Shown here: positions 5,476-27,180 of the stretch, piece by piece
Position numbering within the stretch: the first letter of the stretch is position 1
Layout: every line of letters begins with the position of its first letter
Virus record (IMG/VR): IMGVR_UViG_3300032061_000007
Span: 1 to 29,736 of that record
Source of the DNA: a virus
Direction: 5' to 3' (one strand)
DNA length: 29,736 nucleotides
Notes under the pieces: generated by a model
Told to the model about the DNA's origin: nothing
The model's input: the letters and a program-made list of their open reading frames with translations, nothing else
Databases searched by the model: none
Translations under genes and position numbers: made by a program

Positions 5476-6009
5476 ATGGAAAAAGATTCAAAATTGCCAC
5501 AACATTTGGCCTTAGTATATGAAAATATAACGTATTATTCGCTTGAAGAAGCTGAAGATAGCATAAATGCTGAAAAATTAGACAGCACATCAATTTTAGA
5601 AATTGGGGAAGATTTGCCCATTTTTTATGATGGTGAAGTTATTTTATATAAAATCAATGATAACATGTATCCAGGAATGATCATTGATATTCTACTCGAA
5701 AACAATAAAGAACTTGCATATTTAGTTGTAAAACGAATGGGAGTTGCCCAACTTTATGATATTATAACATTATCATTTGACACCGATGGTGGTGTTGAAG
5801 TTGTAATTGATGCATATTCTGGCGGAATTCACCAATCATTATCAAATAATATGGATATGGCCAAGATTTTTAGTATTGTGTCATGTGGTACTGTTGATCT
5901 GGAACAATATATTGTTCGATCTGTTCAAGAAGCAATTGATTATCACACTGATATGATGGATGCCTTAGATGAATTTACAGATCCAGAAAAGACTGTTACA
6001 ATTCATTGA
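5476..6009 (+). CDS. Unknown acidic protein, late-expressed
   Basis: 177 aa, acidic, with no signal peptide or clear membrane segment. It has an alternating beta-like core (PGMIIDILLENNKELAYLVV, about residues 66-85) and a helical C-terminus. I do not recognise a family. The ATG at 5476 has an AAAGGTAGGAAA ribosome binding site and an exact late promoter 31 nt upstream, so it is probably made with the structural genes. It is the first plus-strand gene after the terminase promoter and faces the minus-strand gene at 6026-6472 tail to tail with a 16-nt gap and no evident terminator. Confidence 0.75.
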   Translation: MEKDSKLPQHLALVYENITYYSLEEAEDSINAEKLDSTSILEIGEDLPIFYDGEVILYKINDNMYPGMIIDILLENNKELAYLVVKRMGVAQLYDIITLSFDTDGGVEVVIDAYSGGIHQSLSNNMDMAKIFSIVSCGTVDLEQYIVRSVQEAIDYHTDMMDALDEFTDPEKTVTIH

Positions 6010-6025
6010 CTGCATTAAAAGATTA

Positions 6026-6472
6026 TTATGACTCAGTGGTGTGCATCATCCAGCTTTTCACAGATGCATTAAGTTCACTATCAAATCGCTCTGATAATTC
6101 AAAGAATGATAATGAAAAATACTTTGAATTGTTACCAGTTACAATTATGCGGGTGCCCTGAATAGTTATATCTTTTATGCCTGGTTTTTCTTGCAATGAT
6201 GTTTCAATTGCATATAAAATATGATCAACACCAGAAAAATCAACAGTTGTATATGCAACATCAAAATAAAATCGGTTAGCATTTATCTTAATATTTTCCG
6301 ATAAAATAAACGCTGGTATAGTTGGTTTAATCGATGGATCAGTTAGATACATGCCATAATTCTTCCAATAATGGCAAACGATAGAAACTACAGCAGCATT
6401 AAATACTGTGCATTCATCGTGATGTTTTGTCAAATCGACACCAATTAATTTTCCTAAGCTATCAATATTCAT
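6026..6472 (-). CDS. Unknown protein, late-expressed
   Basis: 148 aa from the chosen start. Several beta-prone segments (NRFYFDVAYTTVDF, IKDITIQGTRIIVTG) suggest a small mixed fold; no catalytic motif is evident. Three in-frame ATGs occur at 6484, 6475 and 6472. The late motif AATAAATA at 6490-6497 would start transcription close to 6484, so the first ATG would be at the very 5' end and its own codons (ATGGAG) supply the Shine-Dalgarno. ATG 6472, with GGAG six nt upstream, is therefore preferred. The gene stands alone between two plus-strand units. No function is inferred. Confidence 0.65.
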   Translation of the reverse strand: MNIDSLGKLIGVDLTKHHDECTVFNAAVVSIVCHYWKNYGMYLTDPSIKPTIPAFILSENIKINANRFYFDVAYTTVDFSGVDHILYAIETSLQEKPGIKDITIQGTRIIVTGNNSKYFSLSFFELSERFDSELNASVKSWMMHTTES

Positions 6473-6489
6473 CATGTTCTCCATGACTA

Positions 6490-6511: not shown

Positions 6512-6541
6512 TTGCCTTAAACGTGATATATGTGGTATTAT
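6512..6541 (+). promoter_or_regulatory. Sigma70-like promoter for the glycosyltransferase/methyltransferase cassette
   Basis: Plus strand TTGCCT (6512-6517), an 18-nt spacer, TATTAT (6536-6541) with TGG directly before it (extended -10). It precedes the first cassette gene at 6564. No late TATAAATA motif is present between here and 10335, so this cassette is probably under host-type or early control, unlike its structural neighbours. Confidence 0.45.
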
Positions 6542-6563: not shown

Positions 6564-7208
6564 ATGATAATTCTTACAGCAATAACACCACACCCACCAT
6601 ACAAAGATGAATTAGGGCCATGGACACAAAGTTTATATGATTTCGGATATCATGGCACATATAAATACTTAGAAGATACAACAAATTGGATGGGTAATTG
6701 TCTACAAAAGCCAGAAGTCATTTTAGATGTATATAATTCACTGGATGACGATGTATTATGGCTTGATGTTGATATGCGGGTCAAACAAGAATTAACCTTG
6801 ATTGAAGACAATATAGACAAATATGATTTCATGTGCTATGAGCGAATCGATTGTAAACTACATAATGTAGGATGGCACTGGAATGCCGGTGTGATGTTTT
6901 TTAAACAATCGGAAAAAGGTAGATTGCTTTTAGAAACATGGGCGACCATGTGTGCCGAAGCAGACCCAGATAGTTTTATGCCTGAACAAAAAGCATTACA
7001 TTTTGCGTGGCATAAAGTCAATCCTAAAACATTATCATTACCAGAAATATACAATGCTGATTGGGATAAAAATTTGGATGATGTTGTAATAGAACATGGG
7101 AAAGCCAGTCGCAAGTATAAACACATTGTAGAAAGTGGTAAAAAAATGAGTGGTGTTCCATGGAATGTCACAATTGAAGAGGGACGAAAATTAAAAGATG
7201 AATTTTGA
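6564..7208 (+). CDS. GT-A fold glycosyltransferase (GT8/GT32-like)
   Basis: 214 aa. It has the hallmarks of a retaining, metal-dependent nucleotide-sugar transferase: a DxD motif in WLDVDM (residues 67-71), NAGVMFF (107-113), a following EQKAL (141-145) and a C-terminal HGKASRKYK segment (178-186) that may bind phosphate. There is no signal peptide, so it acts in the cytoplasm. Donor and acceptor cannot be read from sequence; candidates are host surface glycans, phage DNA bases or virion proteins. It is the first gene of a coupled plus-strand cassette; its stop overlaps the next start by 11 nt. The ribosome binding site is weak. Confidence 0.75.
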   Translation: MIILTAITPHPPYKDELGPWTQSLYDFGYHGTYKYLEDTTNWMGNCLQKPEVILDVYNSLDDDVLWLDVDMRVKQELTLIEDNIDKYDFMCYERIDCKLHNVGWHWNAGVMFFKQSEKGRLLLETWATMCAEADPDSFMPEQKALHFAWHKVNPKTLSLPEIYNADWDKNLDDVVIEHGKASRKYKHIVESGKKMSGVPWNVTIEEGRKLKDEF

Positions 7209-7470
7209 TGATATAATTAACGAATTTAGAACATTTTCAACAATAACTGGTTCTGGTCCCGGATATTTTTATGCGCGAGATGATACATTCTTCTATTTAG
7301 TTAATGACCACGATCAAACAATAAAAGTAGGATATAGAATGACATTTGATAGATGGGTAAATAGTGTCGACTATCTACTAGCATTTCCTGAATCAGAAAA
7401 ACTAATGAAAGCAATAAAATTCTTTCTTAAATCAAAACAAATTAATCAATCAATTGTGGTAGAATTATGA
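7198..7470 (+). CDS. Small unknown protein in glycosyltransferase cassette
   Basis: 90 aa. Starts inside the last codons of the upstream glycosyltransferase (11-nt overlap) and its stop overlaps the next ATG (ATGA). It contains an aromatic, beta-like stretch (GYFYARDDTFFYLVNDHD) then helical segments. I recognise no family. The overlap at both ends shows it is a real member of the translationally coupled cassette and it may act with its neighbours. Confidence 0.65.
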   Translation: MNFDDIINEFRTFSTITGSGPGYFYARDDTFFYLVNDHDQTIKVGYRMTFDRWVNSVDYLLAFPESEKLMKAIKFFLKSKQINQSIVVEL

Positions 7471-8084
7471 GTGACTTACGAGTAACAGAAACATTAACTA
7501 TTAATGGTATTGATATAACCAAACAACCACCAATATTGATACCGGGTGGAATCAATTGGCGATGGAACTGGATCGATGCATTAATTAAACAATACGGTTG
7601 GAAAGTCGGGGCAGAACTTGGTGTTAAAGAAGGACGATGTTCGACTTTTCTTTTAATGAACAATCCAGACTTATTCTTACACGCAGTCGACTTGTGGAAT
7701 GTTCAAGAAGGTAACGATCAAAAAGAAGGTGGGGAAACTTATGAAAACTGGGACAATGAAGGATTTTATAAAGCATTTTCAAAAGCAGTAGATAATAATT
7801 TTGTTGACCGATGTAAAATATGGCGTGGCTATACTGATTGGGCAGTAGACTTCATTGAAGATGATAGTTTGGACTTTGTTTTTATTGATGCTGACCATAG
7901 TTTTGAAGGTGTTAGTGGTGATATCCAGAATTGGAAATCAAAAGTAAAAGCTGATGGCGCTATACTTGGTCATGACTATAGTTGGCCAAGTGTTCAGAAA
8001 GCAATCACACAGGAATTTAGTGATCCATCAAAAGTATGGACAGGATGGAACAATACATGGGGCATCTGGAAAAAAGATATATGA
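7467..8084 (+). CDS. Class I SAM-dependent methyltransferase (Methyltransf_24-like)
   Basis: 205 aa. The SAM-binding glycine loop is GAELGVKEG (48-56), followed by an acidic ribose-binding strand (HAVDLW, 72-77), then FVFIDADHSFEGV (137-149) and GAILGHDY (164-171). The IDADHSYE-type signature is typical of small O-methyltransferases found near glycosyltransferases in polysaccharide and glycan clusters. The start overlaps the preceding stop (ATGA), and its own stop overlaps the next ATG. The probable substrate is a sugar or glycan made by the adjacent transferases, but that is inference from context. Confidence 0.8.
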   Translation: MSDLRVTETLTINGIDITKQPPILIPGGINWRWNWIDALIKQYGWKVGAELGVKEGRCSTFLLMNNPDLFLHAVDLWNVQEGNDQKEGGETYENWDNEGFYKAFSKAVDNNFVDRCKIWRGYTDWAVDFIEDDSLDFVFIDADHSFEGVSGDIQNWKSKVKADGAILGHDYSWPSVQKAITQEFSDPSKVWTGWNNTWGIWKKDI

Positions 8085-8269
8085 TATTCATTATTCATCA
8101 CACATCAAATCCACATGCGTATATTAAAACTGTAGTGGCACCTCCGCGTCTATGCGAATGGACAAAAAATATGTCAGAAGCCCAAGTTTTCGAAGTGGAA
8201 CGGGAAGCCGATGCCGCTGCAAAATATATTACTGAAAACGCATTCAATGTAACTGTTAAACAAATATGA
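8081..8269 (+). CDS. Small unknown protein, cassette member
   Basis: 62 aa from ATG 8081, which overlaps the methyltransferase stop in an ATGA arrangement; an in-frame ATG at 8036 lies within the upstream gene and is less likely. The N-terminus is hydrophobic and histidine-containing (MIFIIHHTSNPHAYIK) and the C-terminal half is an amphipathic acidic helix. Its own stop overlaps the next start (ATGA). No family is recognised. Retention in a chain of exact start-stop overlaps is the main evidence that it is real. Confidence 0.6.
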   Translation: MIFIIHHTSNPHAYIKTVVAPPRLCEWTKNMSEAQVFEVEREADAAAKYITENAFNVTVKQI

Positions 8270-8457
8270 CTAAGGATGATATACGCATTTTACGATTAGC
8301 GTTACAAGCTGTAACACATGAATTGGATGATTTTATTATCGCATGTGTAGATGAAAATGGTCAGCCAAAGAAACCTGCCATGGGATCATTAATGAAAGCC
8401 AAGGCATGTTTACCAGAAGGTCATAAAAATGCATTTGCAAAAAAGGTGAAAAGATGA
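8266..8457 (+). CDS. Small unknown protein, cassette member
   Basis: 63 aa, ATGA overlaps at both ends. An N-terminal helix (DDIRILRLALQAVTHELDDF) is followed by a Gly/Pro/Lys-rich C-terminal half ending in a basic tail (AFAKKVKR). No motif is recognised. It directly precedes the NADAR gene and could be a small partner, but nothing in the sequence shows this. Confidence 0.6.
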   Translation: MTKDDIRILRLALQAVTHELDDFIIACVDENGQPKKPAMGSLMKAKACLPEGHKNAFAKKVKR

Positions 8458-8939
8458 TTGAACAATTTACGTTTTTCTGGAGTGGTATTTTTAGCCAATG
8501 GTATACGGCACCCTTCATAATTAATGGGATACCATATAACTGTGCTGAACAATATATGATGCAGCAAAAAGCATTGACCTTTAATGACTTTGAAATCGCA
8601 TTGAAAGTTATGTGCACTAAGAATCCACGGGAGCAAAAAGCATTAGGGCGACAAGTCAAAAATTTTAAAATGATTAAATGGGCTGAAGTTGCTCGTGATA
8701 TCGTATACACCGGCAACTATGCAAAATTCACTAAGAATCCAGAATTATATGAACAACTAATAGCAACACAAGGAACTACATTAGTTGAAGCCAGTCCCAA
8801 GGATACATTGTGGGGAATTGGTTTAGCCGAAGATGACCCACGGGCGTTAAATCGTGAAACATGGTTAGGTAAAAACTGGTTGGGTGAAGTATTAACCAAA
8901 GTTCGTGATGACATTATTAAAAGTTCAGAGGATTTCTAA
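8454..8939 (+). CDS. NADAR-domain protein (YbiA-like, DUF1768)
   Basis: 161 aa, a full-length single NADAR domain. Diagnostic segments are FWSGIFSQWY (8-17), INGIPYNCAEQYMMQQKA (23-40), VEASPKDTLWGIGL (111-124) and NWLGEVL (141-147), all matching the YbiA family pattern. YbiA acts as an N-glycosidase in riboflavin metabolism, and some NADAR proteins are reported to remove ADP-ribose from guanine bases, acting as antitoxins to DarT-type toxins. In a phage, a counter-defence role or a role in nucleotide-sugar handling are both possible. It is ATGA-coupled to the upstream gene and TAATG-coupled to the downstream methyltransferase. Confidence 0.85.
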   Translation: MIEQFTFFWSGIFSQWYTAPFIINGIPYNCAEQYMMQQKALTFNDFEIALKVMCTKNPREQKALGRQVKNFKMIKWAEVARDIVYTGNYAKFTKNPELYEQLIATQGTTLVEASPKDTLWGIGLAEDDPRALNRETWLGKNWLGEVLTKVRDDIIKSSEDF

Positions 8940-9574
8940 TGAAACTAAACATAAGTAACAACGCAATTAAGTACATTCAATTACAACGAACTGATCACAA
9001 AGTTCCTGGTATGATTGCTGAAGCATATTCAAAAGACATTGAAGATGATTTCAATATCATAAAAGAATATCTACCAGAAAAAGCTACGAATGTACTTGAT
9101 ATAGGATGTGGCATTGGTGGCATAGATGTATTATTATATCACTACTTCGTTGCGCAAAACACAAATCCTCATATGTGGATGTTGGATAAATCAGAATTCC
9201 CAACACAAATGCGTTATGGCTGGGGAGAAACTACGCCATTCTACAATTCACTAGACTTGACTTATGCCACATTACTTGCTAATGATGTACCATCGAAAAA
9301 TATTCATTGTGTTGAAGCTAATCTGAATTTCACCATTGATATTCCAACAAATGTCGAAATGACTTTAGTGACATCATTTCTGTCATGGGGATTTCACTAC
9401 CCAGTAGAATCATATATTAAAAATGTGATGAAAATACTCACTAAGCGTGGTCGAGTCATAATCGACTTGCGGTATGAATCAGATGTCAACGTTCTTAAAC
9501 TCTATTTTAAGAACGTTGAAATAATAATTCAAAAAGGAAAAGCATACAGAACTGTATGCTGGGGGAAAAAATGA
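8939..9574 (+). CDS. Class I SAM-dependent methyltransferase
   Basis: 211 aa. SAM loop VLDIGCGIGG (52-61) with an acidic second motif (MWMLDKSEF) and the usual late strand (GRVIIDLRY). The substrate domain is unfamiliar. The start overlaps the NADAR stop (TAATG), and its stop overlaps the next glycosyltransferase start (ATGA). The 3' part contains a perfect 13-bp inverted repeat (9487-9518) that is listed separately. The call as a methyltransferase is firm from motif I; a sugar or glycan substrate is inferred only from the neighbouring glycosyltransferases. Confidence 0.78.
   Translation: MKLNISNNAIKYIQLQRTDHKVPGMIAEAYSKDIEDDFNIIKEYLPEKATNVLDIGCGIGGIDVLLYHYFVAQNTNPHMWMLDKSEFPTQMRYGWGETTPFYNSLDLTYATLLANDVPSKNIHCVEANLNFTIDIPTNVEMTLVTSFLSWGFHYPVESYIKNVMKILTKRGRVIIDLRYESDVNVLKLYFKNVEIIIQKGKAYRTVCWGKK
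9487..9518. repeat. Perfect 13-bp inverted repeat inside a methyltransferase gene
   Basis: CAACGTTCTTAAA (9487-9499), a 6-nt loop, then TTTAAGAACGTTG (9506-9518). There is no U-tract on either strand, so it is not a standard terminator. It lies 53 nt upstream of the next glycosyltransferase start, inside coding sequence, and could be an RNA structure affecting the coupled downstream gene, or a protein-binding palindrome. Confidence 0.75.
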
Positions 9575-10335
9575 AAGTAGTATTCTTTAACGTAGACAAA
9601 GAAGATCAAATAACGTCACTGTCTGACAACAGAAAAAATTATGAAATTATTTGGGCCATGATGGAAAGTGTGCGTCTGGCCATGCCGGATGCTGATATCG
9701 TTCAACTATCAGATAACGAAAGCGCCATCATCGAAAACGTTGATGAAATTTATCGATGTGGGCCTAAACCAAAATACCTTATGCCTGCACGTATGAAATA
9801 TCAATATGAATATTTAAAGCATCATTGTCCGTATGGTGAAAATGTTATCTTCATTGATCCAGATATAATTGTTCAACATGATTTATCGGATGTATTTGAT
9901 GATAATTTTGATGTTGGTTTAACATGGCGAGATAATCTTGGTCAACTTTCCGAACAGATGCCGTTTAATGCAGGTGTGGTGTTTTGCGTTAATAAGATGG
10001 CAAGTAAACTTTTCTTTTTAACAGCATACAATATGATTGAACATGGAATAGAAAATGTTAAACAATGGTATGGTGATCAATTAGCAATGATTGATATTGT
10101 TGGCCGTGAAAATTACAAAAACAGAACGTCAGATTATATTGAGACCAAAGATATCGTCTTTAAAATGTTTCCATGTGCATCATATAACTATTCACCCGTC
10201 GGCGAAGAAATATTAAGGGTATTACATCCATCAGAAAATTGTAAAACATTTGATAGACTTAAAACCAAACATGTACTTCATTTTAAAGGTGGCTTAAAAG
10301 ACCATATGACATCATACTGGGAAAAACTTTATTGA
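9571..10335 (+). CDS. GT-A fold glycosyltransferase (GT8-like)
   Basis: 254 aa from ATG 9571, chosen because GGGGGAAAA lies directly before it and it overlaps the previous stop (ATGA); an in-frame ATG at 9556 lacks a site. GT8-type features: FIDPDII with DxD at 96-98, PFNAGVVF (131-138), WYGDQLAM (167-174) and a C-terminal HFKGGLKDH segment resembling the phosphate-binding HxKG motif. Cytoplasmic, probably Mn2+-dependent. It is distinct from the first transferase of the cassette, so the cassette may build at least a two-step product. It is the last plus-strand gene, and its end overlaps the convergent minus gene by 7 nt. Confidence 0.8.
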   Translation: MKVVFFNVDKEDQITSLSDNRKNYEIIWAMMESVRLAMPDADIVQLSDNESAIIENVDEIYRCGPKPKYLMPARMKYQYEYLKHHCPYGENVIFIDPDIIVQHDLSDVFDDNFDVGLTWRDNLGQLSEQMPFNAGVVFCVNKMASKLFFLTAYNMIEHGIENVKQWYGDQLAMIDIVGRENYKNRTSDYIETKDIVFKMFPCASYNYSPVGEEILRVLHPSENCKTFDRLKTKHVLHFKGGLKDHMTSYWEKLY

Positions 10336-10586
10336 TATGGTGTCATATTTTTAAGCATGCGTTCTATGGATATAAGTTCTTTACTAATGTCTGGTAAATC
10401 TTCCATAAAATCAAGTTTTGGTGTTTGTTCCAAATCTTTAAGTGCTGCTATTATATGTTTATGTGCAGATGCAACTTTTTTATTGTAAAGCTTTACATTT
10501 TCTGGAGTTTTTTCATCAAGATCGGATCGTTTCATTGGAAGTTTATAACCAACAATATTTCCTTCATTTAATACATTTAATTTCAT
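10329..10586 (-). CDS. Small protein with MKLNxLNEG leader, candidate internal head protein
   Basis: 85 aa, helical, charged. The first nine residues, MKLNVLNEG, nearly match the start of another protein at 28505-28819 (MKLNQLNEG), while the bodies differ. LNE followed by G (6-9) fits the cleavage pattern of the T4 prohead protease. By analogy with T4 internal proteins it may be targeted to the capsid core, clipped after Glu8 and packaged. A GAGGATAG ribosome binding site and an exact late promoter (10619-10626) precede it, consistent with virion assembly timing. The body function is unknown. Confidence 0.6.
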   Translation of the reverse strand: MKLNVLNEGNIVGYKLPMKRSDLDEKTPENVKLYNKKVASAHKHIIAALKDLEQTPKLDFMEDLPDISKELISIERMLKNMTPYQ

Positions 10587-15203: not shown

Positions 15204-15605
15204 TTATTTTTTAATTGAACGTGTTTTATTATCATCAACATCTTTTTCATAATCAATCTTCTTGCCGTCCAATGCTTGTTTCAATCGATATGCAAATGTT
15301 TTATCTTTAATTTGACCAGATGGAAAATTATTTGACAAATATCCCACAGAAAAATTAATAGCGGGTTTTTCAATTATTTCAGTTATATTAGCTTCACCGC
15401 CATTATCAGATAATATATAAGTTTTATTATGAAGCATAAATGTAACTTGACTTTTGTCTTTATCTTCTTCAATAAATTTACCACCCATTGCTTTAATAAC
15501 TGTATGAAAATTGAATTTATTCCAATCTTTTGGTGATTCAGTTAATGTTTCATCACTTTCTGTTATTGACATTCCTGCCAATTTTCTTAATCTATTGTTA
15601 TCCAT
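15204..15605 (-). CDS. Leader-bearing small protein, candidate internal head protein
   Basis: 133 aa. The N-terminus MDNNRLRKLAGMSITESDETLTES is shared in pattern with four other proteins in this window (LAG fixed at residues 9-11). ITE|S (14-17) and LTE|S (21-24) fit [L/I]xE cleavage by a T4 gp21-type prohead protease. The body is charged, beta-prone in the middle (KSQVTFMLHNKTYIL) and helical at the end; no family is recognised. The ribosome binding site AAGGAATT and 36 nt of upstream sequence duplicate those of the next gene. A late motif (AATAAATA) lies 43 nt upstream. Likely packaged in the capsid, by analogy with T4 internal proteins. Confidence 0.65.
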   Translation of the reverse strand: MDNNRLRKLAGMSITESDETLTESPKDWNKFNFHTVIKAMGGKFIEEDKDKSQVTFMLHNKTYILSDNGGEANITEIIEKPAINFSVGYLSNNFPSGQIKDKTFAYRLKQALDGKKIDYEKDVDDNKTRSIKK

Positions 15606-15647: not shown

Positions 15648-15655
15648 TATTTATT
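15648..15655 (-). promoter_or_regulatory. Late promoter variant (AATAAATA) overlapping a stop codon
   Basis: Minus-strand motif 43 nt upstream of the ATG at 15605. Its first bases coincide with the TAA of the gene at 15654-15962. Confidence 0.45.
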
Positions 15656-15962
15656 AGAATCCAACAGACCAATATTTATTATCTGTGGACGATTCAATCC
15701 AACGAATTTTTAATGCGATAAGCTTTTTCAAATCACTAATATCAAGTCTACTATTGTGTAGATCAGTAGGAAACATAGCAATAATTCCATGAATACCTTC
15801 AAAAACATCAGCTGCATCCTTACCAAAAATTGCTTTAAGTTTAGCGTATATTTTTTGCTTATTTGCATCCAATTCTGATACTTCTACTTTTGATGCTTCA
15901 GTTAATTTAGCAGTTTCTTTTAATGGCAATCCTGCCAAACGACGTGCTTCATGTAAGTCCAT
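15654..15962 (-). CDS. Leader-bearing small protein, candidate internal head protein
   Basis: 102 aa. N-terminus MDLHEARRLAGLPLKETAKLTEAS, with LAG at 9-11, LKE at 14-16 and LTE|A at 20-23, the latter an excellent prohead-protease site. After it come alternating helices (KQKIYAKLKAIFGKDAADVF, SDLKKLIALKIRWIE). The mature part would be about 80 aa. No family is recognised. It begins 11 nt after the neck-like gene's stop, with AAGGAGTTA as ribosome binding site. Its upstream sequence is duplicated before the next leader gene. Inferred role: encapsidated, perhaps ejected, protein. Confidence 0.65.
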   Translation of the reverse strand: MDLHEARRLAGLPLKETAKLTEASKVEVSELDANKQKIYAKLKAIFGKDAADVFEGIHGIIAMFPTDLHNSRLDISDLKKLIALKIRWIESSTDNKYWSVGF

Positions 15963-19839: not shown

Positions 19840-19998
19840 TTACTTTTCACTTTCTATAATTGGTTTGGTTCGAATTTCATGTTTAATATATTCTAATCGT
19901 TTATGGAGTTCTTCTTGTGATAGATTTGAATCAACAGAAATATACCATATTCGACGATTATCATCTTTTACGGTACTTTTCACTATATTACCATTCAT
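19840..19998 (-). CDS. Small unknown protein coupled to the capsid-like gene
   Basis: 52 aa from ATG 19998, which overlaps the TGA of the upstream capsid-like gene in an ATGA arrangement. The sequence is charged, with a beta-type start (RRIWYISVDS) and a helix (SQEELHKRLEYIKHEI). No ribosome binding site beyond weak GGTTAA, so coupling is probable. No family is recognised. The remaining 70 nt to the next gene (19768-19839) hold only the hairpin above. Confidence 0.6.
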   Translation of the reverse strand: MNGNIVKSTVKDDNRRIWYISVDSNLSQEELHKRLEYIKHEIRTKPIIESEK

Positions 19999-20939
19999 TT
20001 TATTTTAACCTCAAGTAGTTTAAAGTATTTAGATGAATCAACCATTTCACTTGAGCAAAAAGTCAATCCAAATTTACTTACTGATTCACTAAATTTGGTA
20101 ATATATGGTGCAAATACTACCCCAGCATCAACCTCATTATCGCCACGGTAGGCTATTAATGCAAAATCACCATCATATTCATTAGTATAATAAATATCAA
20201 TTGTACCATTTTGTTTACCAGCATGACAAAACGATTGTTTTTTAAAATCTTCATCAATAGTAAAAAATGCGGAATCTTTATACAATTCAAAAACCGAATC
20301 ACTCAATAAAATAATATTTCCACAACCACGTCTTGTTTCAGTTGCTATAGTATGAGCATTAGACATAAACATCAAACTAAGTTTTTCAGCAGATTTTCTT
20401 GAAGAATCAAGATCGATAGTTACTTTGGTGGATGCATTCATGATTTCATCGAAAATATACTTATCTAATCCAATAGAAAAATCTGAATTTGTAATTGGTA
20501 CTTCTTTAGCCTCTACCGCAGATTTCATAATAGAAAGCATTAGTTTTGGTGTATTATCATACTCGCTTACCAATTCAGCAAATTTTTCTTCTGAAATCTT
20601 ATTTGCTTTCATTGGATCGATTTCATATACATCAACAGGAACATACGCATGTTCTTTAGCATTCCATACCCATTCATCACGTGGATCAGGGTTTTTAAAT
20701 TCGCGATGTCTCAATACATATGATAGACCAACATCAGAATTCATTGGCTGGGTTCCAACAAAATTAAGACTAATCATGTTTTCATAAATTTTAGCTACAT
20801 CACATAAACTATCTTTTTGCTGATTAATAGTTTTCATAGAATCAATATGTGCAAATTGATTAGTAAGAAGTGCCTTCATCATTTCCTTTCTTGATGAATT
20901 ATCAGCCAATTCATCGATAAATTGTTCTATTATATCCAT
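19995..20939 (-). CDS. gp23-family capsid-like protein lacking the spine-helix region
   Basis: 314 aa (T4 gp23 is 521, gp24 427). Clear T4 major-capsid segments: NFVGTQPMNSDVGLSYVLRH (59-78; T4 has CGVQPMNSPTGQVFALR), ATETRRGCGNIILLSDSVFEL (199-219; T4 TGRGEGNFIIASRNVVNVL), and IYYTNEYDGDFALIAYRG plus DAGVVFAPY (249-279; T4 YIDQYAKQDYFTVGYKG, DAGIYYAPY). The intervening spine-helix signature (IEAKSRxLKA...QDLRAVHG) is missing, and the C-terminal KTRYG is degraded. It is not a normal major capsid protein. It may be a vertex, minor or accessory capsid subunit. The two genes just upstream carry the missing segments. Coupled to both neighbours (TAATG, ATGA). Confidence 0.7.
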   Translation of the reverse strand: MDIIEQFIDELADNSSRKEMMKALLTNQFAHIDSMKTINQQKDSLCDVAKIYENMISLNFVGTQPMNSDVGLSYVLRHREFKNPDPRDEWVWNAKEHAYVPVDVYEIDPMKANKISEEKFAELVSEYDNTPKLMLSIMKSAVEAKEVPITNSDFSIGLDKYIFDEIMNASTKVTIDLDSSRKSAEKLSLMFMSNAHTIATETRRGCGNIILLSDSVFELYKDSAFFTIDEDFKKQSFCHAGKQNGTIDIYYTNEYDGDFALIAYRGDNEVDAGVVFAPYITKFSESVSKFGLTFCSSEMVDSSKYFKLLEVKIK

Positions 20940-21727
20940 TATACACTATCCTTATCAATTTTGCCATAACGTGTCAGCATAGGTAGTGTTGGTGTAAATG
21001 TATCAGCATCCATTGTAACAGCAATAAACATGATTAAAATATATGGACAAAAATGCTTGATATTTGGAATCATTTCATCCATTTCATCTGCTATATCTTT
21101 AGCAACTAATCTAACCATATCATCTTCAACATCAAGACCATGCATAGCCTTCATATCTTGTGAAGCTTCTAGCGACCAGGACGTACTCATTTTTCGTGAA
21201 AATGCTTCTATAGCTTGTTCATCAACTAATGATACTGGCCCTGACATAACCGTGACAGGAACATCATCAAATATTTTAGCTTGATTGATCACAGCAACAG
21301 TTAACTTAGCAAGCAATTTCCAGTTGTTAATGTCATTAAATGACGATGCTGTTTTATTTTTATATGCTGCATATGCATTATCTAACAATGCAATAGCAAT
21401 ATCATGATGTTTATGGTCTTTAGGAACCAGTGTTTCAACAAATTTATCCCATTCTTCTTTAGTAAGATTGGGTGTATAAAACCAACCCATCTTGTTTAAT
21501 TCATATTCATTATGTGCTTCTGTGACAGCTAATTCGCCATTGGCACGAACGCCAGAGTAAATTACCTTGGCGCCACGGTCAGCCAAATATTCAAATTCTG
21601 GTTTAAGATTGTTTATATATTCCTGTGCTTTAGAAGCAATCATATTACCAACTGGAATTTTTACGATATAAATCGTATCTGCTTTTACTTCAATTGTTTC
21701 AACTTCTGTAGGTGCAATAATATTCAT
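20939..21727 (-). CDS. Paralog 1 with gp23-type spine-helix and C-terminal segments
   Basis: 262 aa. Residues 1-65 form an unknown N-terminal domain (IYIVKIPVGNMIASKAQEYI ... KVIYSG). Residues 169-216 match the T4 gp23 spine-helix region closely: EQAIEAFSRKMSTSWSLEA and QDMKAMHGLDVEDDM against gp23 KQVIEAKSRQLKAAYSIEL and QDLRAVHGMDADAEL. The end (FCPYILIM ... LPMLTRYGKI) parallels gp23 YAPYVALT ... GFKTRYGI. The gp23 QPM and RRGxGN parts are absent, complementary to the gene downstream. Strong GGGGAGGAA ribosome binding site and an exact late promoter 30 nt upstream. Function unknown; a capsid-fold derivative is inferred. Confidence 0.65.
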   Translation of the reverse strand: MNIIAPTEVETIEVKADTIYIVKIPVGNMIASKAQEYINNLKPEFEYLADRGAKVIYSGVRANGELAVTEAHNEYELNKMGWFYTPNLTKEEWDKFVETLVPKDHKHHDIAIALLDNAYAAYKNKTASSFNDINNWKLLAKLTVAVINQAKIFDDVPVTVMSGPVSLVDEQAIEAFSRKMSTSWSLEASQDMKAMHGLDVEDDMVRLVAKDIADEMDEMIPNIKHFCPYILIMFIAVTMDADTFTPTLPMLTRYGKIDKDSV

Positions 21728-21748
21728 TGTTTTCCTCCCCGTATATTA

Positions 21749-22528
21749 TTATATTTTATTTATAGAACCATACCGCATCATGAATCGAATTGTTGGTTCA
21801 CCTGTGGTGGTATTAATTATAGCTTCTGTTGGCATAATTAGAATATATGGACAAAATACACTAAGATGATCACACAGATCATCATATTCTGCGGTTAATT
21901 CCTGAGCCAATCCTATAAAATAGTTAGGATCAAACCTATCGCCATAGTATGCAGCGCAATCTTGCGGGCGTTCCATATTCCATGCTGCTAATAGCTGTAC
22001 TGTTTTCGCTTCTATTGCTTTTTGTCCAACCACATCAATAGGGCCGCGCATTGGAAATATAGGTAGGTCTTTAAATATTCGTGAATTTTTAATAATGTAA
22101 ACAGCTAATGATGCAATTATTCGCCAATCTATCATTGGTTTGCCTACTGATACCAATTGCTCATACCATTTATATTGGTTTTCAAGCAATACATTTACAG
22201 CATCAGTAACATAATAATCAGCAAATTCCTTGCTAACAAATTCATCCCATTGCTGCTTTGTTCCAGCATCTTTATATGCGGTAGAATCTGCCAATGGTTC
22301 ATCGGCCTTTACATCATGTGAATCAGTGTTGACTACGATATTAATAGGCCCATCGGTGTTGTAACCTATAAATGTAACATCACTGCCTTTTGATCTCAAA
22401 ACATCAAAATGTGGTGCAATTGATTCAATAAATTTCTTTGTTTTTACTGCTGAGTTATTCCCGGCTGGAAATTGAACCAGATATAATACATCTGGTAATA
22501 CTGGAATAGTATCCACTTTAATAGTCAT
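21749..22528 (-). CDS. Paralog 2 with gp23-type spine-helix and C-terminal segments
   Basis: 259 aa, a diverged tandem copy of the neighbour at 20939-21727. Shared landmarks are LVQFPAGN (paralog 1 IVKIPVGN), RGPIDVVGQKAIEAKTVQLL (SGPVSLVDEQAIEAFSRKM), ERPQDCAAYYG (EASQDMKAMHG), VFCPYILIM (HFCPYILIM) and IRFMMRYGSINK (LPMLTRYGKIDK). The IEAKT-x-x-L-x-A-A-W and MRYG elements again resemble T4 gp23. The GGGAGGATA ribosome binding site is strong and a late motif (ACTAAATA) lies 30 nt upstream. A bidirectional terminator separates it from the accessory block. The N-terminal domain is unassigned. Confidence 0.62.
   Translation of the reverse strand: MTIKVDTIPVLPDVLYLVQFPAGNNSAVKTKKFIESIAPHFDVLRSKGSDVTFIGYNTDGPINIVVNTDSHDVKADEPLADSTAYKDAGTKQQWDEFVSKEFADYYVTDAVNVLLENQYKWYEQLVSVGKPMIDWRIIASLAVYIIKNSRIFKDLPIFPMRGPIDVVGQKAIEAKTVQLLAAWNMERPQDCAAYYGDRFDPNYFIGLAQELTAEYDDLCDHLSVFCPYILIMPTEAIINTTTGEPTIRFMMRYGSINKI
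21757..21764 (-). promoter_or_regulatory. T4-type late promoter (TATAAATA) inside the 3' end of paralog 2
   Basis: Exact octamer on the minus strand, 30 nt before ATG 21727, encoded within the last codons of the upstream paralog. Confidence 0.6.
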
Positions 22529-22660: not shown

Positions 22661-23092
22661 TTAAAACATATAAGTTGTTTTTTCATCAATGATTTTAGCG
22701 ATGCTTTTAGTGTCAACAGGTTCGGAATTGCGAAATGTTGCTATATTATCACTACCATTTGCTGAAACACCTTTTAGTTCAAGATTAATGATATTTTTTC
22801 CAGAACCGGATGGTGCATCGAATATAATGTACAGTGAACCACTGAATTCAGTATCCGACTTAGTATATCCCTTAAATTCTAATATAGCCATAGAACGGTT
22901 TTCACGGTTTATGGTGCGTACTGATGAAGTGAATCGCTGCTTAGGAAGCTTTTTACTAATATCGGTTAGTACTGCTACTGCGAACTTTGTAAAGTAATCG
23001 TTTAGAAGAAATCCTTTTGATGCTTCATTAATTTGTTCAACATCTTCTTTCAGTGCCATACCTGCCAGTTTGCGTGTTCTATTTTCGTCCAT
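22661..23092 (-). CDS. Leader-bearing protein, candidate internal head protein
   Basis: 143 aa from ATG 23092, chosen because the leader then aligns with the other family members (MDENRTRKLAGMALKE); an in-frame ATG four codons upstream lies in the duplicated junction. LAG at 9-11, LKE at 14-16, INE|A at 21-24 as the likely prohead-protease site. The body is beta-rich (MAILEFKGYTKSD, SGSLYIIFDAPSG, INLELKG) with no recognised family. A short repeat before the ATG is shared with the next leader gene. A terminator lies past its stop. Confidence 0.65.
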   Translation of the reverse strand: MDENRTRKLAGMALKEDVEQINEASKGFLLNDYFTKFAVAVLTDISKKLPKQRFTSSVRTINRENRSMAILEFKGYTKSDTEFSGSLYIIFDAPSGSGKNIINLELKGVSANGSDNIATFRNSEPVDTKSIAKIIDEKTTYMF

Positions 23093-23110
23093 TATTAGGC
23101 CCATCCTTTA
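23088..23110. repeat. Direct repeat copy C (leader junction)
   Basis: 23 nt matching 22 of 23 positions with 23565-23587. It spans the stop of the 153-aa gene and the start of the 143-aa leader gene. Confidence 0.8.
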
Positions 23111-23569
23111 TTTGGTTACTATATGTAAGTAAATGTTATTTTGTTCAAAAAATTTGTTTACTGTTTTGTAGCCTTGCATAACTTGTTGTTTCTGTACTTT
23201 TTTAGGAGTTGTTATATCAAATCCTATAGATTTAGTATCAAAATGCGATTTCATAAATGATGTTATAGCTTTTTTTGCATCGGCAAGTGAATCAATACCA
23301 TCAAGTGTGATATCATATACAACACCATTTTTTAAATCACGTGGGATGGATGATTTTGTTTTGAATCCAATAAATACATCAAATTCATTTCCATCTGAAT
23401 AAATGTCACCAAAACCAATACCATTACACCAGCCATTCAAGTTTTTAAACTGATCAAATGTTTTGTATAATGTATCATAATCGTTATTATTGAGGACAGA
23501 TCCATCAAGCACACCTTCTGATAATTGTTCTGTTAATCCTGCCAATTTTCGTATTCTATTCATATCCAT
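23108..23569 (-). CDS. Leader-bearing protein, candidate internal head protein
   Basis: 153 aa from ATG 23569 (aligned with the leader family; an in-frame ATG at 23581 overlaps the upstream gene). Leader MDMNRIRKLAGLTEQLSEG with LAG at 9-11, LTE at 12-14 and LSE|G at 16-19, a near-ideal prohead-protease site. The body has a Gly/Asp-rich first part, beta strands (EFDVFIGFKTKSS, GVVYDITLDG) and a helical, basic end. No family is recognised. The ATG lies 2 nt after the stop of the 50-aa gene, so translation is coupled. Confidence 0.65.
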   Translation of the reverse strand: MDMNRIRKLAGLTEQLSEGVLDGSVLNNNDYDTLYKTFDQFKNLNGWCNGIGFGDIYSDGNEFDVFIGFKTKSSIPRDLKNGVVYDITLDGIDSLADAKKAITSFMKSHFDTKSIGFDITTPKKVQKQQVMQGYKTVNKFFEQNNIYLHIVTK

Positions 23570-23587
23570 TATTAGTCCCATCCTTTA
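23565..23587. repeat. Direct repeat copy D (leader junction)
   Basis: 23 nt matching copy C at 22 of 23 positions. Here it encodes the last residues (GKGWD) and stop of the 50-aa basic gene and the start of the leader gene, so it is probably the parent copy. Confidence 0.8.
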
Positions 23588-26916: not shown

Positions 26917-27180
26917 TTATTTTGACCACCAGTGTTTTTTCTTTGGTTTACTACTTGATGATTTATGATGCATTGGCTTTACTTTATGTGCTTCTTTAGA
27001 TGCCTTATGTATAGCAGCCTGCACATGTGTGATCATTTCATCAATTTCTTTATCAGAAGCGTTAGGATGCGCTTCTTTCAGACCATTTTTAAGACCTGTG
27101 TGTAGTAAATCATTAATTTCAAAAATTTCTTCTGATTCAGTTACAATACCTGCTAATTCTCTTACTCTACTTTCATCCAT
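26917..27180 (-). CDS. Leader-bearing small basic protein, candidate internal head protein
   Basis: 87 aa. Leader MDESRVRELAGIVTESEE with LAG at 9-11 and VTE|S at 13-16 (IFE at 19-21 is a second option). The middle is helical (SDKEIDEMITHVQAAIHKAS) and the tail is His/Lys/Ser-rich and basic, ending KPKKKHWWSK, suited to binding packaged DNA or a membrane. Ribosome binding site TGGAGAAAT; a late motif overlapping the upstream stop lies 57 nt away. No family is recognised. Confidence 0.65.
   Translation of the reverse strand: MDESRVRELAGIVTESEEIFEINDLLHTGLKNGLKEAHPNASDKEIDEMITHVQAAIHKASKEAHKVKPMHHKSSSSKPKKKHWWSK

Follow-up and report, generated by a model that had tools for sequence, protein, structure and literature searches.

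What do eight tightly packed genes contribute to a tailed phage when they run against its late genes? The question is raised by a plus-strand cassette in the virus record IMGVR_UViG_3300032061_000007, of which we analysed a 29.7 kb stretch (29,736 nt, G000; hereafter the window, from which all window counts are drawn). The initial annotation had recognised two GT8-like transferases, two S-adenosylmethionine (SAM) methyltransferases, and a NADAR protein, and had proposed one multi-step pathway for DNA hypermodification, virion glycosylation, or changes of host surface glycans. With slightly better than even confidence, we interpret the cassette as a set of accessory genes, arranged as an operon, in a divergent T4-like jumbo myovirus. 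In this reading, the core of the cassette is a glyco-methylation module whose probable targets are virion proteins; it is made up of genes 1 and 8, which encode GT-A/GT8-like glycosyltransferases, and of the SAM methyltransferase genes 3 and 7, whereas the NADAR gene (gene 6) is a separate, co-transcribed counter-defence gene. Genes 1 and 8 would transfer sugars from host nucleoside diphosphate (NDP) sugars onto an acceptor, most likely one or more virion proteins of the capsid or tail, and genes 3 and 7 would cap or alter the transferred sugars by O-methylation.

We confirmed eight plus-strand open reading frames (ORFs) at 6564-10335, opposite to the neighboring late genes (Table 1). The overlapping arrangement described in the initial annotation holds at all seven junctions, which measure -11, -4, -4, -4, -4, -1, and -4 nt in order, versus 3/32 adjacent minus-strand gene pairs of the window (Fisher p = 7.8e-6). 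Two starts were corrected: gene 4 most likely begins at 8081, in an ATGA overlap, instead of 8036, and gene 8 most likely at 9571, after GGGGG, instead of 9556. Such overlap had been taken to imply a stoichiometric or sequential pathway, of which it is by itself no proof. The guanine-plus-cytosine content of the cassette (0.351) matches that of the window (0.348); therefore, the composition shows no sign of recent transfer.

The predicted identity of genes 1 and 8 as GT8-like transferases was borne out by a profile derived solely from proteins of uncultured phages and free of window proteins, which matched gene 8 at E 2.8e-21 and gene 1 at E 7.5e-5; gene 1 rose to E 2.7e-6 once gene 8 joined the profile. 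Both proteins carry the DxD, NAGV, and (D/E)Q motifs, so that profile match, DxD, and NAGV together place them in the GT-A/GT8-like group, although their PF03407 scores (E 0.015 for gene 1 and 7.5e-4 for gene 8) lie under the curated Pfam cut-off. When genes 1, 7, and 8 were searched directly at the DNA and protein levels, phages and viral contigs gave no matches, and relatives surfaced only via the loci gathered with gene 3; a tblastn search of the cassette against these 80 loci located gene 8 homologues in L139, L151, L141, L182, and L184. In a plasmid search, a weak relative of gene 8 was a nucleotide-sugar transferase of Leisingera, and scans with the Leisingera/gene 8 pair gave no matches. 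An AlphaFold model made without an alignment was uninformative, with a predicted local distance difference test score of 32.

Both methyltransferases named in the initial annotation also stand, gene 3 over the PF13578 (Methyltransf_24) curated cut-off (E 7.4e-12, 46.5 bits against 26.3) and gene 7 by the DIGCGIGG motif of class I methyltransferases together with weak family scores, the best Pfam value being 0.004. Evidence that ties them to the transferases comes from other viruses. We gathered 80 viral loci from viral contigs with the gene 3 alignment and, for comparison, 80 loci with NADAR. With the expanded transferase profile, the family of genes 1 and 8 was found in 24/80 Methyltransf_24 loci versus 0/80 NADAR loci (p = 1.6e-8). 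Although both sets shared one target database when the profile was expanded, its first seeds came from the gene 3 set, which somewhat favours this contrast. Furthermore, the two activities are joined in single GT8-like plus Methyltransf_24 polypeptides of 566-659 aa in six loci (L142, L145, L148, L153, L157, and L181); the L181 fusion has a weak MptE-like middle segment as well. In L184, the genes run in the order glycosyltransferase, glycosyltransferase, APS (adenosine 5'-phosphosulfate) kinase, gene 7-like methyltransferase, Methyltransf_24, sulfotransferase-like gene, and glycosyltransferase, with overlaps; its gene 7 homologue (33.5% over 200 aa, E 4e-30) thus adjoins Methyltransf_24 and three glycosyltransferases. 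In the cyanophage ACG-2014f, a relative of gene 3 comes after a 2-oxoglutarate-Fe(II) oxygenase gene and shares an overlap with a GT8-like gene.

The same pairing occurs in cultured phages. The terL of the window is 41-43% identical to that of the jumbo phages Phosso, PA5oct, XacN1, and RAS14, and the comparison across relatives that the initial annotation had proposed revealed that XacN1 and RAS14 each encode a protein in which a methyltransferase N-terminus is fused to a glycosyltransferase of the gene 1/8 family (glycosyltransferase domain, E about 1e-35). The N-terminus is TylF/Methyltransf_24 in XacN1 and below cut-off in RAS14, and both fusions adjoin MptE-like genes. Like the cassette, XacN1 ORF373-375 and the RAS14 equivalent are overlapping operons that combine a methyltransferase with a gene 1/8-family transferase; unlike it, they hold one fused protein and MptE-like companions, lie far from terL, and include no NADAR in the module. 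In XacN1 (L206, 258445-264341), 4-nt overlaps link the fusion with two MptE-like genes, and the module adjoins a pair of very large ORFs, each of more than 1000 aa, which are possible tail fibre genes.

This recurrent linkage bears on the alternative that the eight genes are unrelated accessory genes under one promoter, moron-like cargo at a site of variable content that separates head closure from terminase. A comparable place beside the head-closure gene is occupied by ribonucleotide reductase and glutaredoxin genes in Phosso (L027) and OLIVR5 (L115), and the cassette may sit at the same accessory site as this cargo; moreover, NADAR is unlinked elsewhere, and genes 2, 4, and 5 gave no families in family scans. 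However, the transferase and Methyltransf_24 families are repeatedly linked and fused, and gene 7, gene 3, and transferase relatives stand together in L184, so we regard mere shared cargo as improbable.

The linkage likewise bears on the reading that phage DNA contains a modified base to which the transferases add sugar and on which the methyltransferases act. T-even phages do have a two-glycosyltransferase DNA modification, in which the second-sugar enzyme of T6 is of the GT-A type (PMC13216743), and gene 3 matches phrog_2675, labelled DNA methyltransferase (E 4.3e-18). That match is partial, covering residues 318-456 of the 599-position profile. Gene 3 relatives are fused to or adjoin GT8-like enzymes, so that a glycan is the probable common substrate and gene 3 most likely serves in sugar O-methylation; in that case, the label of the PHROG is probably misleading. 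In addition, scans of the cassette gave no hydroxymethylase, TET/JBP, Mom, kinase, or other base-modifying gene, while the companions of the module elsewhere are sulfotransferase-like, APS kinase, and MptE-like genes, and the modules lie beside capsid genes. The cassette thus offers no positive evidence for DNA hypermodification, which we consider improbable; among the three options of the initial annotation, the comparative evidence favours virion glycosylation.

A virion protein appears the likeliest acceptor because similar enzymes recur as compact overlapping modules in the head and neck blocks of unrelated phages. When the flanks were scanned individually, capsid, decoration, portal, or neck genes were found beside the modules in L129, L132, L144, L151, L157, L182, L139, and L141, and in L129, L132, L144, and L157 the module begins directly after the capsid gene or one small gene later; a pooled scan of the flanks yielded tail proteins also. 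The modules of L184, L182, L151, L132, L144, and L129 resemble the cassette in pairing Methyltransf_24 with one to three GT8-like genes in overlapping order, L184 having the gene 7 homologue too, but differ in their extra sulfotransferase-like, APS kinase, or MptE-like genes, in sharing the orientation of the capsid genes, and in having no NADAR.

A functional parallel is provided by the cluster O mycobacteriophages (Corndog gp35-gp38; Catdawg 33-36), where the module lies between portal and protease (PMC4351075) in the order portal, O-methyltransferase, three glycosyltransferases, protease, and capsid, with 4-8 nt overlaps. Cluster O virions are described as glycosylated on the capsid and tail tube in the statements of PMC11600133 and PMC12619734 that cite Freeman 2023. 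As in the cassette, an O-methyltransferase and several glycosyltransferases form an overlapping operon among virion genes, the cassette being placed, though antisense, between head closure/tail tube and terminase. The differences are that the cluster O module is in sense with the structural genes and has no NADAR, and that the function is demonstrated there, that of the cassette being predicted.

The virion target is the weakest link of our interpretation, and its main rival is a host-surface module, in which the enzymes modify host lipopolysaccharide, O-antigen, or capsule and thereby block superinfection or change the receptor. Jumbo phages, above all cyanophages, carry glycosyltransferase clusters proposed to change the host surface; such surface polysaccharide clusters have been defined by an NDP-sugar epimerase/dehydratase or a nucleotidyltransferase alongside glycosyltransferases, with reduced sets in non-cyanophages (PMC7824862). 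The cassette is consistent with this in having its own orientation and no late motif, and the Leisingera relative of gene 8 adjoins a GT4 gene. Nevertheless, no NDP-sugar synthesis gene, epimerase/dehydratase, nucleotidyltransferase, flippase, or membrane protein was recognised in the cassette, and related modules cluster within head and neck genes; we hold a host-surface role to be unlikely.

The NADAR assignment of gene 6 made in the initial annotation is firmly matched, with PF08719 at E 6.3e-50 (170 bits against a cut-off of 35.1) and TIGR02464 at E 1.4e-44. In our alignment, gene 6 keeps seven of the eight residues of PDB 8bau named for ligand contact or catalysis (PMC11543638), namely E43, K50, R79, W89, E125, D130, and W133, which correspond to E32, K39, R66, W76, E112, D117, and W120 in gene 6, with Ala at the R93 position (the 8bau numbering of PMC11543638 equals the chain position in the alignment minus two). 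The catalytic Glu, Lys, and last-strand acid (E32, K39, and E112) are thus present, as expected of the NADAR/YbiA ADP-ribosyl-guanine hydrolases, with which gene 6 shares the fold family and key residues; it differs from them in that Ala and in a Glu where T4 gp30.3-type phage NADARs have His. No ADP-ribosyltransferase, DarT or other, was matched among the cassette and adjacent proteins, which sets the locus apart from DarT1-NADAR toxin-antitoxin pairs.

NADARs act on ADP-ribosylated guanine (PMC11543638, PMC11125620), and their counter-defence role is a predicted one; conserved activity is no guarantee of protection from DarT1 in vivo (PMC11125620, PMC9503650). Phosso, XacN1, and RAS14 have one to three NADAR genes far from terL, and those of XacN1 and RAS14 are also far from the Methyltransf_24 gene. 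A step of NADAR in the glycan pathway was rejected on this separation and on the 0/80 linkage given above, so the multi-step pathway of the initial annotation is retained for the coupled transferases and methyltransferases, acting on a glycan, and dropped for NADAR. Given the unlinked state of NADAR in relatives and its published roles in guanine de-ADP-ribosylation and counter-defence, we treat gene 6 as what looks like a co-transcribed counter-defence passenger with a separate job: it would remove ADP-ribose from guanine, or related ADP-ribose derivatives, placed there by host defence.

Table 1. Genes of the cassette and neighboring features in the window.
Feature	Position	Strand	Assignment	Basis or remark
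ORF	5476-6009	+	no family match	between terS and cassette
ORF	6026-6484	-		between terS and cassette
Candidate promoter	6512..6541	+	TTGCCT-18-TATTAT, TG before -10	upstream of gene 1
Gene 1	6564..7208	+	GT-A/GT8-like glycosyltransferase, 214 aa	LWLDVD, WNAGV, and EQ motifs; profile match
Gene 2	7198..7470	+	no family assigned, 90 aa	11-nt overlap with gene 1
Gene 3	7467..8084	+	Methyltransf_24 SAM methyltransferase, probable sugar O-methyltransferase, 205 aa	PF13578
Gene 4	8081..8269	+	no family assigned, 62 aa	ATGA start; longer ORF from 8036
Gene 5	8266..8457	+	no family assigned, 63 aa	distant matches rejected
Gene 6	8454..8939	+	NADAR (YbiA type), predicted ADP-ribosyl-guanine/N-glycosyl hydrolase, 161 aa	PF08719
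Gene 7	8939..9574	+	class I SAM methyltransferase, 211 aa	motif; weak Pfam/NCBIfam scores
Gene 8	9571..10335	+	GT-A/GT8-like glycosyltransferase, 254 aa	FIDPDI, FNAGV, and DQ motifs; profile match

Antisense matches of gene 5 in NADAR loci were rejected, because they were weak and fell within a longer coding region of virion type. Gene 7 contains, within its coding sequence, a 17-nt inverted repeat (9483-9522; 94%, 6-nt loop) that includes a perfect 12-bp stem. Riboswitches, other Rfam RNAs, and tRNAs were looked for, and none was found.

The initial annotation had placed a sigma70-like promoter, not a late one, before the cassette. The string exists (Table 1), but such sites are no more frequent in the region than chance allows (35 found versus 33.0 ± 5.9 in shuffles), and no Shine-Dalgarno sequence precedes the 6564 start. 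The core ATAAATA, chosen post hoc as the top 7-mer, lies within 100 nt upstream of 11 window genes, many of them on the minus strand, versus 1.4 expected, and resembles the T4 late promoter; it is absent upstream of gene 1, so this part of the earlier claim stands.

The minus-strand late genes are T4-like and comprise ssb, an ATP-dependent DNA ligase, terL, terS, a gp4-like head closure gene, two tail tubes, a sheath, a sheath stabiliser, and gp23-like capsid proteins; a search found no close DNA relative of the window. On this strand, terS/terL and ligase border the cassette at one end and a group of head closure, tail tube, sheath, and capsid genes at the other, and the end of gene 8 overlaps a convergent ORF (10329-10586) by 7 nt. 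The gp23-like capsid protein appears to be split into two interleaved chains (19995-22528, minus strand), and an intact capsid gene may lie elsewhere in the genome. ORF 19995-20939 (-) matches residues 88-119 and 274-401 of the OLIVR5 major capsid protein, which cover its N-terminal VGxQPM motif and a later part of the A-domain. ORF 20939-21727 (-) matches residues 199-246 and 392-421 of that protein, covering the spine helix and the C-terminal strand, and has a paralogue in ORF 21749-22528 (-) (31%, E 1e-43). In addition, the small minus-strand proteins 15204-15605, 15654-15962, 22661-23104, 23108-23581, and 26917-27180 share an N-terminus like MDxNRxRKLAGx, which is absent from the cassette proteins; it resembles a capsid-targeting or prohead-cleaved leader and suggests a set of packaged internal proteins.

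Several points weigh against a virion glyco-methylation module. Genes 1 and 8 on their own score below the Pfam cut-offs. Virion genes fill much of any phage genome, which makes adjacency weaker evidence than the glycosyltransferase-methyltransferase linkage, and this adjacency was checked for some of the 24 loci only. Being antisense to the structural genes and lacking their ATAAATA motif, the cassette might be expressed early and not together with the virion genes. Finally, the Catdawg glycosyltransferase and methyltransferase proteins gave no significant hidden Markov model, BLAST, or hhalign match to the cassette; therefore, our claim is that the cassette works like the cluster O module, not that it is one of its kind.

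A wider picture, to which we give a little less than an even chance, is that GT8-like and Methyltransf_24 enzymes, often fused and often accompanied by sulfotransferase-, APS kinase-, or MptE-like genes, form a widespread module beside the capsid genes of unrelated tailed phages that gives virions a coat of methylated or sulfated glycans. The window would then hold the version of a T4-like jumbo phage, inverted relative to the late genes, whose operon has captured a NADAR gene for counter-defence. If so, virion glyco-methylation would be a recurrent module across tailed phages and not a peculiarity of mycobacteriophages, with a bearing on how phage coats are recognised. The fused enzymes would potentially be mislabelled in databases as DNA methyltransferases, which would matter for phage annotation, and testable partners would already exist in the cultured phages XacN1 and RAS14.

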